This document shows, one piece after another, positions 7,394 through 38,981 of a DNA stretch of 64,000 nt. The stretch is from an uncultured SAR86 cluster bacterium (lineage in GTDB: Bacteria > Pseudomonadota > Gammaproteobacteria > Magnimaribacterales > AG-339-G14). A program made the position numbers and the translations under genes. The notes beneath the pieces are model-generated. The model ran no database searches. It was not told the DNA's origin and saw only the letters and a program-made list of their open reading frames with translations. The stretch lies in contig CACEVU010000001.1 in NCBI GenBank assembly GCA_902563105.1, positions 349,649 through 413,648 on the forward strand. The letters are read 5' to 3'. How positions within the stretch are numbered: position 1 is the first letter of the stretch; the number at the start of each line of letters is the position of its first letter.

Positions 7394-7838
7394 TAAAAGT
7401 CCTATCTTAGATTCAGACATAAGAAAAAAAATATTAGATTTTCTTTCTAGAAGAGAACATTCCTATAAAGAAATAGTTATTAAACTTAGTGAGAGAGTTA
7501 CATCTCTAGACAAATTAATTATGGAATTAGATAAACTTAAACAAGAAGGGCTTCAATGTGATGAAAGATTCTCTGAATCTTATACTAGAGCAAGAAGTAT
7601 TAAGGGATTTGGACCGCAAAGAATTTCATATGAATTGAAAACTAAAGGAATTGATGAAACTTTAATCGAAAGAATAGTATATTCTCATGAGATGGATTGG
7701 TTAAAAATTTTATTAAAAGAATTTAAAAAAAAATTCTCTGAAAAAGACGATTTTTCAACAAAAGAGATTTTGAAGATAAAAAAGTTTTTTGCTCAGAGAG
7801 GTTTTGTCAATGAACAAATCAATCATCTTTTTAAATAA
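7383..7838 (+). CDS. recX: Regulatory protein RecX
   Basis: LSRREHSYKEI...YTRARSIKGFGPQRISYELKTKGI...KKFFAQRGF repeats typical of RecX. Confidence 0.85.
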   Translation: MVFNKSPILDSDIRKKILDFLSRREHSYKEIVIKLSERVTSLDKLIMELDKLKQEGLQCDERFSESYTRARSIKGFGPQRISYELKTKGIDETLIERIVYSHEMDWLKILLKEFKKKFSEKDDFSTKEILKIKKFFAQRGFVNEQINHLFK

Positions 7839-9319
7839 TGAGCTATTTAGTTTTAGCTAGAAAATGGAGACCAAAAAACTTTGCAGAAGTGGTGGGACAG
7901 GATCATGCCGTTTCTGCTCTGAGAAATTCAATAAACTCTGAAAATATTCATCACGCATATCTTTTTACTGGAACTAGGGGTATAGGAAAAACAAGCATTG
8001 CCAGAATATTGGCAAAAGCTTTAAATTGTAGTGATTTAAAAAATGGCGAACCATGTAATCTTTGCGATTCATGTAGATCCATCAATGAGGGAGCAGCAAT
8101 AGATTTTATAGAAATAGATGCAGCTTCAAGAAGAGGAATAGAGGATACCAAAAACCTTTTAGAGACCATTTCTTATTTACCAGCATCTTCTAAATATAAG
8201 ATCTATCTTATTGATGAAGTTCACATGCTTACACCTGAGAGCTTTAATGCTTTATTAAAGAATTTAGAAGAACCGCCACCACATGTAATTTTTATGTTTG
8301 CCACCACAGAATATAAAAAAATTCTTCCTACAATAGTTTCAAGATGTCTCCAAATCAATCTAAGTTCAGCATCAGTTAAAACAATTACTGAGCAACTAAG
8401 TAAAATTTTTTCTCAAGAAAAAATTAAATTTGATGACATTTCACTATCTCTCATAGCTGATGCTGCTCAAGGAAGCATTCGAGATGCATTGTCTATTTCT
8501 GAAAAAGTAATATCGTTTTGTAATAACAATTTAAAAGAAGATATGGTTAGAGAAGTTCTTGGTATTCCGGAGCCGAAAATAATTTCTAATCTTCTCAAAG
8601 CGATTTTAGAGGAAAACATTCAAGATGTTCTGTCAATCTTAAACGACTATGGGGAATATGAGGATCACGAATTTTTATTAAAAACTCTAATGGATCTCAT
8701 ACAAAAAATAGCAGTACTTCAGTTTGAAAAAGATACACATAAAAATAATGATTTAGAAGATTTTTTATCAACCGATCCAGCAAAATTACAATTTTTATAT
8801 CAAATAGGACTTACAAATTTGAATCATTTTAGTCTAGGTTATGACTCATACTCTATTTTAAAAATGACTTTATTAAAAATGGTAGCTTTTTCTGACGCAA
8901 GTCAAAAAAAAAAATCACTGATAGATAAAAAACAAGAAAACACAGATATTTTTTGGCCAAAGATATTTACCGATCTAAATTTAAATGGAATTTCAAAAAA
9001 CATTCTTAAACAGGCAAGTATCGAAAAAAAATTCAATAACCTAAAAATTTCATTTCCGAAGAAAACATTTTCTATATTTAATGAAGATCAGAAAAAAGAA
9101 ATTGAATTATGTTTTAGTGACTTTTTTCAAGAAGAACTAAAATTTACTTATGATAGTAAAGTAATTTTTGAAAAGACTCCTGAGTATGAGATTAAATTAA
9201 GAAACAAAGGCCAAAAAAAGAATATAAAAAAAATAATGGAAAAGGATAAAAACTTTAAAGAAATAATCGGTGGGCTCAAGGTTGAATCAGTAGAGTTTAA
9301 TAAAAAAAATGAAACTTAG
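7838..9319 (+). CDS. dnaX: DNA polymerase III subunit gamma/tau
   Basis: MSYLVLARKWRPKNFAEVVGQ, GTRGIGKTS Walker A, CNLCDSC zinc site, DEVHMLT. Confidence 0.95.
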   Translation: MSYLVLARKWRPKNFAEVVGQDHAVSALRNSINSENIHHAYLFTGTRGIGKTSIARILAKALNCSDLKNGEPCNLCDSCRSINEGAAIDFIEIDAASRRGIEDTKNLLETISYLPASSKYKIYLIDEVHMLTPESFNALLKNLEEPPPHVIFMFATTEYKKILPTIVSRCLQINLSSASVKTITEQLSKIFSQEKIKFDDISLSLIADAAQGSIRDALSISEKVISFCNNNLKEDMVREVLGIPEPKIISNLLKAILEENIQDVLSILNDYGEYEDHEFLLKTLMDLIQKIAVLQFEKDTHKNNDLEDFLSTDPAKLQFLYQIGLTNLNHFSLGYDSYSILKMTLLKMVAFSDASQKKKSLIDKKQENTDIFWPKIFTDLNLNGISKNILKQASIEKKFNNLKISFPKKTFSIFNEDQKKEIELCFSDFFQEELKFTYDSKVIFEKTPEYEIKLRNKGQKKNIKKIMEKDKNFKEIIGGLKVESVEFNKKNET

Positions 9320-9908
9320 CCCTAAAATTTCTAATTTAATAGACTCATTAAAAGCTCTGCCAGGAATTGGTCCAAAATCTGCAAAAAGAATGGCTCTCTC
9401 TTTATTGAGCTCTGAAAAGGAATCAGGCTTGTCTCTATCAAAGTCAATTGAAGATGCAATTTTGAATATAAAATTTTGTCAAAAATGTTTTGTTTTAAAT
9501 GATCAAGATATTTGTGAAATATGCAAGTCTCCAGCTAGAGATAATAACTCCATCTGTGTCGTAGAATCGACTTCGGATTTATATTCTATAGAAGAGACCT
9601 CTGAATTTAATGGTAGATATTTCGTCCTTAATGGCTTGCTTTCTCCAATAGATAATATTGGAGCAAATGAATTAAGAATAGACAATTTGTTAGAAGTTAT
9701 AGAAGAATATAACTCTAGAGAAATTATTCTAGCTCTTAATTCAACACTTGAAGGTGAAGCAACTGCATACTTTTTATTAGAAAAGCTCAAAAAGAAAAAT
9801 CTTATAATTACTAGAATAGCTCAAGGCGTTCCTGCAGGTGGAGACTTAAACTATGTAGATAATAATACTTTAAGAAGAGCAATTTCTTTTAGAACCGAAT
9901 TAAAATGA
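9309..9908 (+). CDS. recR: Recombination protein RecR
   Basis: [24 protein letters not shown] zinc finger, Toprim domain, [20 protein letters not shown]. Confidence 0.95.
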
Positions 9909-35728: not shown

Positions 35729-37381
35729 TTATAAATCAATGTCTTTGTAATTTGATATAGATATCTTATCTTTTGATATTTTCATATCTTTTGAAGGATT
35801 TAAAATTTCTTCATTGAAGCGATAAATGAGTTCATACTTACCGTTAACACTTTCTTCAAAGTAAATATTTCTTTTCTCTTCCGTAAGAGAGAGCTTTGTT
35901 TCATAACTTTTTAACTTTTGTTTGTCTATTTTAGATTTTATGAAACCTGGACTAACTATGCCACAAGAACCATTATTTCCGCCGAAACCTTTAGCATTTA
36001 GATAGATCACATTCACTGTTTCCTTGTCAACTTCCTTAGTTTTTAGACAAAAGTCTAAATTATCTGTCAGCACATCATCTGCAAGTTTTTTTGTTGTATT
36101 TATTCCTGGAATTAATCCATGATTCCAAATTCCTATCGCAGTGATTAATTCGTCACCAGCTGCTGGACCCATAGTATGTCCCAGCATTCCTTTCAGAGCC
36201 GTAACTTTCCAACCTCTCAAATCAAATCCTTCAGCAACTCTATTTAAAACATCAGATTCAGTACTTCTATTTTGAAAGGTCCCTGTTCCATGGGCTATAA
36301 CAATACTGTTTTCGATAGAACAACCTATCTTTAATGTATTAGAAAGAGATTGAGCCATCGTTAAATAGTTACCAATTCCTGGAGAACTAATTGATTTTTT
36401 GAATCCGTCTGCATTTATCGCAACATCTGTAAAACCACCGAGTATGTTGAGACCGTTTTCTAAAGCAAATTCTAAAGTTGTAACAGCTACAAATTGAGCT
36501 GCTTCGCCTAAAATCATTCCAGCATTATCTCCAAATGGACGACAAGCATTTTTATGATCAACCTTTTCAAAATTGTCATCACTATTTCTATTTTGCATTT
36601 CTAAGATCTTTTTATCATCTGCTATTCCTGTAGTTGCTAAAAAACCATCTGTTATTTCTGGATTTATGGGTGCTTCTGCAGAACCAACAATAGAAAAATC
36701 TAGCTCATTATTTTTGATTCCCTTTAAAGCTAAATCTAAGTTGTAGAGGAAAGTAGCACAAGCACCGGCTACAGTTCCTGTTTTACCTAAAGACCCCAAG
36801 ACATATGCATTTATAAAATCAGCCGACATACCTATCAAGGACATCGATAAATGTTTAGAACTAGCTCGTTTACCAATTTTTCTTGATTGTAAAAGCCCTC
36901 CCATTCCCTCAAAGTCAAGTTGTCCTATGGCAGGGCCTGAAAAAACTCCAATTCTTTTTGGATCCAGCAATGGTTTAAGTTCAGAATCCCAATCCTTACC
37001 AAGGTTTTTTAAACAATCGGTGACTCCAAAGATTGTCATTTGAATTCCTTTAGGGTGTTGTCTGGAATTATACATTTTTGAAAGATCAATCCCTTCAGGA
37101 AGTTGTCCTGCTGCATTTACATTCATAATATCTTTCATGAGCAGTTCAGGATCAAAAAGATCTGAATTTATTGTTCTCACTAAAGTTTTCTTTAAGATAT
37201 CTTTTTCTGATGAAATTTCTGAATTGGTTAAAGAACTGAGATCTTTGAGAAGAAATTTTTTTGCACTTGCATCAAGCTTATCTAAAACAAGTCTTTTGTA
37301 TGAAAAATCAAAAGACGATCTACCAGCAGAGTTTATACCTCCAACACTACATATCACGGGAAATCTTTTAAAATCTTGCAT
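35729..37381 (-). CDS. FabY-like beta-ketoacyl-ACP synthase
   Basis: GGINSAGRSSFDFSYKRLVL, GQLPEGIDLSKMYNSRQHPKGIQM, GACATFLYNLDLALKG active-site Cys, AHGTGTFQNRSTESD, NADGFKKSISSPGIGNYLT; resembles P. aeruginosa FabY. Confidence 0.8.
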   Translation of the reverse strand: MQDFKRFPVICSVGGINSAGRSSFDFSYKRLVLDKLDASAKKFLLKDLSSLTNSEISSEKDILKKTLVRTINSDLFDPELLMKDIMNVNAAGQLPEGIDLSKMYNSRQHPKGIQMTIFGVTDCLKNLGKDWDSELKPLLDPKRIGVFSGPAIGQLDFEGMGGLLQSRKIGKRASSKHLSMSLIGMSADFINAYVLGSLGKTGTVAGACATFLYNLDLALKGIKNNELDFSIVGSAEAPINPEITDGFLATTGIADDKKILEMQNRNSDDNFEKVDHKNACRPFGDNAGMILGEAAQFVAVTTLEFALENGLNILGGFTDVAINADGFKKSISSPGIGNYLTMAQSLSNTLKIGCSIENSIVIAHGTGTFQNRSTESDVLNRVAEGFDLRGWKVTALKGMLGHTMGPAAGDELITAIGIWNHGLIPGINTTKKLADDVLTDNLDFCLKTKEVDKETVNVIYLNAKGFGGNNGSCGIVSPGFIKSKIDKQKLKSYETKLSLTEEKRNIYFEESVNGKYELIYRFNEEILNPSKDMKISKDKISISNYKDIDL

Positions 37382-37439
37382 GAATTTTTTTTTTAAATTA
37401 ACTTATGAACTTAATTTTACATTATTTAAAGGAGAGGGC

Positions 37440-38981
37440 ATGCATCCAGGAATAAACGGACCTAAATTAAAAGATAAACCTGCGATTATCATGGCAGGAA
37501 GTGGGGATATAATTACCCACCAAGAACTAAACGAATTATCAAATCAAGGAGCTCAATTATTCAGATCTTTAGGCTTGAAGCCTGGGGATAGTATGGCTTT
37601 TATGATGGAAAATCATAAACTGTTTTTCCCCATTGCATTTGCCGCTTACAGAAGTGGGTTGAAGTATACGGCAATAAGTTGGAGACTTCAGGCTAGTGAG
37701 GTTGAATACATCGTAAAAGATTGTGGTGCCAAAGTATTCATTACTAGTAAATTTCTTGAAGAGTCTGCAAAGTCTTTGGTTAGTTCTCTAAAAGGAGTTC
37801 ATAAATTTATGCTTGATGAGGCAATAGAAGATTTTAGATCTTATGAAGAAGAGATAGGAAAAATGCCAGACACGCCTATAGAAGACGAGTGTCAAGGTGC
37901 TGCAATGTTGTACTCTTCAGGAACAACTGGTAAACCTAAAGGCGTCAGTCGCGAAATAAATTTAAGTCCTTTACCTTATAAAGCAGATGAAGATGATTTA
38001 GGCCTTACCAGAGTAGTACAAGGATTGTATTCTGCCGATGAAGACTCTGTTTATTTGTCTCCAGCTCCTCTTTACCATTCAGCGCCGATGGGATTCAACA
38101 CAGGATTTCTTGCATTAGGTGCCACCAGTATTATCCTAGAAAAATTTGACCCTGAAGCCGCTTTAGCTGCTATCGAGAAATATAAAATAACTCATAGCCA
38201 ATGGGTTCCAACAATGTTTGTAAGATTTTTAAAGAGCGATCCGGAGATCTTCAATAAATATGATTTATCATCGCACCGAATTGCTATTCATGCTGCCGCG
38301 CCATGTCCGGTAGAAGTAAAAGAAAAAATGATAGATTGGTGGGGCCCGATAATTCATGAGTATTATGCTGGAACTGAATTCAATGGCTTTGTTGCATGTA
38401 ATTCTGAGCAATGGCTTTCTCATAAAGGAACAGTTGGACAGTCTCTTCTGGGTCCAATTCATATATTGGACGATGATCAAAATGACGTTCCAGTTGGGGA
38501 GGAAGGAACAATTTATTTTGAAGGACCTACAGCAAACGGGTTTTCTTACCACAATGATAAAGAAAAAACTAAAGGAGCAACATCGAAACAAGGATATACA
38601 ACTTTAGGAGATATAGGTTATTTAGACGAGGACGGATTTCTCTATTTAACAGACAGAAAAGCTTTTATGATTATTTCTGGAGGAGTAAATATTTATCCTA
38701 AAGAAACAGAGGATGCTTTAATAATGCATCCTAAGGTTGCTGATGTTGCTGTATTTGGAGTTCCTAACGAAGAAATGGGAGAAGAAGTAAAAGCAGTTGT
38801 TCAACCCGAAGATATGAATCTTGCTGGGGAAAATTTGGAAGCTGAACTTATGGCATATTGCAGAGAAAATATATCGCATGTTAAGTGTCCTAAGTCCATT
38901 GATTTTAGAAAAGAACTTCCAAGGCATCCAACAGGAAAGCTTTACAAGAGACTATTAAAAGATGAGTATTGGAAAAGTTAG
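37440..38981 (+). CDS. AMP-dependent acyl-CoA synthetase/ligase
   Basis: [15 protein letters not shown]-binding motif, [27 protein letters not shown]-terminal [22 protein letters not shown] before ATG 37440. Confidence 0.9.

Follow-up and report, generated by a model that had tools for sequence, protein, structure and literature searches.

Does dnaX of a SAR86 bacterium yield one product or two and, if two, by which route is the shorter one made? The question is raised by a 64,000-nucleotide (nt) stretch of DNA (the window; contig CACEVU010000001.1, positions 349,649 to 413,648), whose close records carry the label SAR86 cluster bacterium. Its dnaX gene (DNA polymerase III gamma/tau; 7838..9319, + strand; TIGR02397, E=3e-120) encodes a full-length product, tau, of 493 amino acids (aa). 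Codon 356 begins at 8903, where the gene reads CAA AAA AAA AAA TCA, and the resulting run of eleven A's (A11) occupies 8904..8914 on the + strand (codons 356-359). A preliminary description of this DNA had placed the run there and named it the longest in-frame A run of the window, and both statements were confirmed. It is also the sole A11 among 408 open reading frames (ORFs) in 464 kb of the genome, and just two A11 stretches were found when both strands of the whole 1.2-Mb genome were counted. We consider the A11 to be a programmed transcriptional slippage site with a probability of roughly three in four, judging from sequence comparisons. Three features of Thermus-type slippage were found at this locus, namely a homopolymer A run of at least nine in the tau frame (here A11), close stops in both alternative frames, and a tract that is under selection across relatives.

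In the proposed mechanism, RNA polymerase would copy the template T run, the RNA-DNA hybrid would slip and some dnaX mRNAs would gain or lose A's. Messages that keep their length, or gain or lose A's in multiples of three, would give tau (493 aa) with its alpha-binding domain V, and changes by three were indeed computed to keep tau. All other messages would run into a stop within 4-11 nt, and their product would be gamma-like, about 360 aa long and limited to domains I-III. The first of these stops is a TGA in the +1 frame (8919..8921, + strand), which lies 4 nt beyond the tract and is met after loss of one A or gain of two. The second is a TAA in the -1 frame (8926..8928, + strand), 11 nt beyond the tract, which is met after gain of one A or after a -1 ribosomal shift. 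The computed products are 363 aa and 361 aa for one and two inserted A's, and 360 aa and 362 aa for one and two deleted A's. Both stop positions and a product of about 360 aa after slippage in either direction had been given in the preliminary description, and the computation reproduces them. We infer slippage itself, its rate and the working of the short protein in the clamp loader.

The tract lies between two parts of the protein. Upstream are an AAA+ domain (PF13177, residues 21-177; 7898..8368, + strand), an ATPase lid (PF22608, residues 183-229; 8384..8524, + strand) and domain III (PF12169, residues 233-360; 8534..8917, + strand), which ends at the tract. The short form would thus end just past the AAA+ clamp-loader domains, as had been proposed. 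Residues 353-368 (8894..8941, + strand) form a predicted disordered linker; in the AlphaFold2 model they are the only internal stretch beyond the first 20 residues with a predicted local distance difference test (pLDDT) score below 50. Downstream, a folded C-terminal domain (residues 373-478; 8954..9271, + strand) was identified from the model, profiles and structure matches as tau domain V, the Pol III alpha-binding domain, homologous to that of E. coli. SAR86 tails matched gammaproteobacterial tails in a profile-profile comparison (probability 97.6 %, E=2.6e-12), and the profile of the latter in turn hit E. coli tau in the PDB. PF12170 was detected in 7 of 14 SAR86 tails, and the best three structural matches of a separate tail model were all E. 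coli tau domain V (5fku, 2aya and 5fkv). The single tail sequence by itself had no match in the PDB, and profiles were required for this assignment. As the tract is located in the linker between domains III and V, a slipped product would still contain the clamp-loader domains but not the one that binds the polymerase.

Is the run kept in relatives? The sample of 53 dnaX loci, one from the window and 52 from relatives, covered 14 genera of the order in four families, designated f1 (the family of the window) to f4. A run of A9-A11 just after domain III was observed in 52 of the 53 loci, representing 13 of the 14 genera and all four families. Instead of AAG codons or a missing tract, all 32 loci of the window's family have A10 (30 loci) or A11 (2 loci) with no AAG inside, and the other three families have A9 or A10 in 20 of 21 loci, the exception being L033. 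The encoded residues at the tract vary (QKKK, QKKN, EKKN, SKKK, KKKV and others) and the run starts in codon phase 0, 1 or 2 according to lineage. Peptide and register vary while the run persists; the kept feature is the A run at the junction of domain III and the tail, and not the peptide. The 53 loci are related and are not independent events, so the careful count is 13 genera or four families.

Long A runs are otherwise avoided in this genome. When the 408 ORFs were compared with synonymous shuffling, four coding runs of at least A10 were observed against 24.3 ± 3.5 expected, a six-fold depletion, whereas A6-A9 runs were not depleted (for A9, 68 observed and 57.9 expected). Smaller samples from other families follow the same trend for runs of at least A10 (one against 4.5 expected in f3 and none against 3.0 in f2). 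In f4, coding runs of at least A9 numbered none against 7.9 expected, a threshold based on only 60 kb because three of the six f4 stretches read as N. The remaining three A10 runs among the 408 ORFs are located at codons 8, 14 and 21 of their genes, and congeners have at least nine A's at these positions in 1 of 8, 0 of 13 and 0 of 8 cases, compared with at least ten in 12 of 12 for dnaX. The A8-A9 runs of the upstream gene are likewise not kept in congeners. Certain A8 runs in other genes are kept too. A conserved run is therefore nothing special if it is short, and becomes so only above the avoided length.

These counts bear on the simplest alternative, that there is no recoding and the tract is a by-product of a lysine-rich linker in an AT-rich genome. 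Lysine codons are 80 % AAA in the sampled genes, and synonymous resampling of the actual peptide gave a run of at least A9 with P of about 0.4-0.7 per tract-bearing genus. All-AAA lysine columns are also common within the genus (9 of 22), and conserved all-AAA columns alone are weak evidence. However, codon shuffling of the 60-codon linker gave P(A≥9) of 0.04-0.39 per tract-bearing genus, yet the tract is found in 13 of 14 genera. The six-fold avoidance of coding A≥10, the lack of conservation of the other A10 runs and the persistence of the tract through changes of peptide and register also speak against a by-product, which we consider quite improbable.

The stops provide a second line of evidence. 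In a first analysis, their closeness was compared with that at A7-A9 runs elsewhere in the genome and the effect was strong. The analysis relied on here used codon shuffles downstream of the tract in 28 SAR86 representatives, and its effect was weaker with the same sign: in 25 of the 28, the two stops taken together were nearer than the median of the shuffles (mean rank 0.23). The +1 frame accounts for this effect (mean rank 0.30), and the -1 frame does not (0.51). The preliminary description had called both stops close; measured against chance, this holds for the two jointly, mainly through the +1 stop, and not for the -1 stop alone. A need to close both frames fits slippage at the RNA level.

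Could the ribosome do the same? In programmed -1 frameshifting, tandem tRNA-Lys would slip on A_AAA_AAA and terminate at 8926-8928, to make gamma in the way that E. coli does. The window has the in-frame A_AAA_AAA, and the -1 stop follows shortly after it (11 nt), as at an E. coli-type site, although across relatives this stop is no closer than chance. As in E. coli, a single tRNA-Lys (UUU) was found in the genome, which is about 94 % complete. With this tRNA, A_AAA_AAG would be the efficient ribosomal site, AAG being the far shiftier codon (PMC5009743). In some f4 relatives and in L036, the run ends in AAG with A_AAA_AAG in phase, and these could use either the transcriptional or the ribosomal route. 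The window tract contains no in-phase A_AAA_AAG, and none of the 32 loci of its family has AAG in the tract. The preliminary description had seen no strong downstream hairpin, and none was found at the window tract (z = +0.73) or on average over 19 SAR86 loci including it (mean z = -0.02). No conserved base pairs were found downstream of the tract, and an Rfam search at E≤10 returned chance matches only and no dnaX frameshift element. No Shine-Dalgarno-like motif was found within 20 nt ahead of the window tract; a weak AGGA or GAGG precedes the tract in just 6 of 52 loci, with no consistent motif. In addition, selection appears to act on run length whatever the register, and the stop that is closer than chance is the +1 stop, which is of no use to a -1 shift. 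A ribosomal origin of the short form is thus unlikely. Transcriptional slippage is preferred, as it was in the preliminary description, because hairpin, Shine-Dalgarno motif and A_AAA_AAG are lacking, run length is kept and both frames close fast.

The tract could also act in the DNA itself. At a contingency (phase-variation) locus, replication slippage would alter the tract length and turn tau off in some cells, and long homopolymers are likely hypermutable in DNA (PMC1088944). All 53 sampled dnaX genes are in frame at the tract, and phase variation, which we find very hard to credit, was rejected on this ground. Domain V is expected to be necessary for replisome coupling, as in E. coli tau, and this also weighs against it.

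Several observations weigh against transcriptional slippage as the programmed route. One genus (L033; genus g5, family f2) is without the tract and has no A run of six or more near the junction. Only A9 is found in the tract-bearing f2 loci and in most of f4, and A9 runs are not avoided in the f2 genome. Taken alone, the -1 stop is no nearer than in codon shuffles of the 28 representatives, and A_AAA_AAA would also allow some ribosomal -1 shifting. Finally, the peptide and AT-rich codon usage alone give a run of at least A9 about half the time per gene, and the relatives are not independent. As peptide and codon usage explain part of the pattern, the argument for transcriptional slippage rests on the avoidance of A≥10, the sole A11 and the non-conservation of the other A10 runs.

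The dnaX run is mostly A9 in f4 (L043, L046 and L048-L052), where runs of at least A9 appear to be avoided, hinting that the slippage threshold may differ between families. A broader reading is offered only tentatively. The SAR86 order may have dropped an E. coli-style frameshift signal and may hold gamma and tau by run length alone, leaving register and peptide free, with the length tuned to the slippage threshold of the lineage's polymerase (A10-A11 in f1, where A≥10 is avoided, and mostly A9 in f4). In the window's family, where tau is compact and has domain V placed almost immediately behind domain III, the result would be a minimal gamma of domains I-III.

The gene downstream is recR (9309..9908, + strand), which starts inside the end of dnaX (overlap 9309-9319) with no gene between them; in E. 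coli, ybaB lies between the two. If translation ended early at the slippage site, about 380 nt ahead of recR would go untranslated, and recR expression could fall as well. Elsewhere in the window, slippage could also occur in an ORF of 614 aa (37137-38981), which has a coding T10 run at codon 83.

Programmed transcriptional slippage in cellular housekeeping genes has been experimentally established in very few cases, of which Thermus dnaX is the standard one. The comparisons support SAR86 dnaX as a probable order-wide new instance of this known kind of recoding. If true, it would be an order-wide case in an abundant, largely uncultured marine group of the same class as E. coli, and gamma would seem worth keeping through whichever recoding route is available. 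A functional site would then be erased wherever annotation or assembly 'corrects' such a tract. SAR86 slippage is directly testable in existing ocean metatranscriptomes. No literature linking SAR86 with dnaX was found in open-access papers, a search that could miss a subscription paper.

Among 130 other dnaX loci, mostly from Gammaproteobacteria, a run of at least A9 in the tail region was counted in 17 and an in-phase A_AAA_AAG in 11; by sequence, the SAR86 case is unusually uniform and not unique. A10 was observed in the dnaX tail of Necropsobacter, Haemophilus sp. and Caviibacterium at about 50 % GC and of Thiomicrorhabdus cannonii at 55 %. A10 with stops nearby, striking at such GC, was seen in genomes of about 48-55 % GC (L241, L242, L243 and L244 of the Pasteurellaceae, and L226 and L230, a Thiomicrorhabdus and a Thiotrichales relative). 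A GeneTack cluster holds 17 two-ORF dnaX genes, 12 with poly-A and nine of these with 10 A's (PMC3711429). They resemble SAR86 dnaX in their poly-A (7-10), for which transcriptional realignment was proposed (PMC3711429), but there tau needs the frameshift, whereas in SAR86 tau is zero-frame and the short form would need it. Escherichia coli, also of the Gammaproteobacteria, makes from the same gene a short product without domain V, as predicted for SAR86, but its A_AAA_AAG, stem-loop and Shine-Dalgarno stimulator have no counterpart at the window site. The closest likeness is to Thermus thermophilus, where slippage at A9 yields gamma (PMC5009743, PMC1088944); slippage was measured there, and in SAR86 we infer it. 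Short product amounts to about 50 % in Thermus. Unlike the A9 of Thermus, the window has A11 (A10 in most of its family), at 72 % of the gene and directly after domain III. Both have a single-ORF dnaX with a long in-frame A run and stops near in both other frames, and the shorter gamma that Thermus makes by standard translation of slipped mRNAs is what we propose for SAR86 (PMC5009743, PMC1088944).
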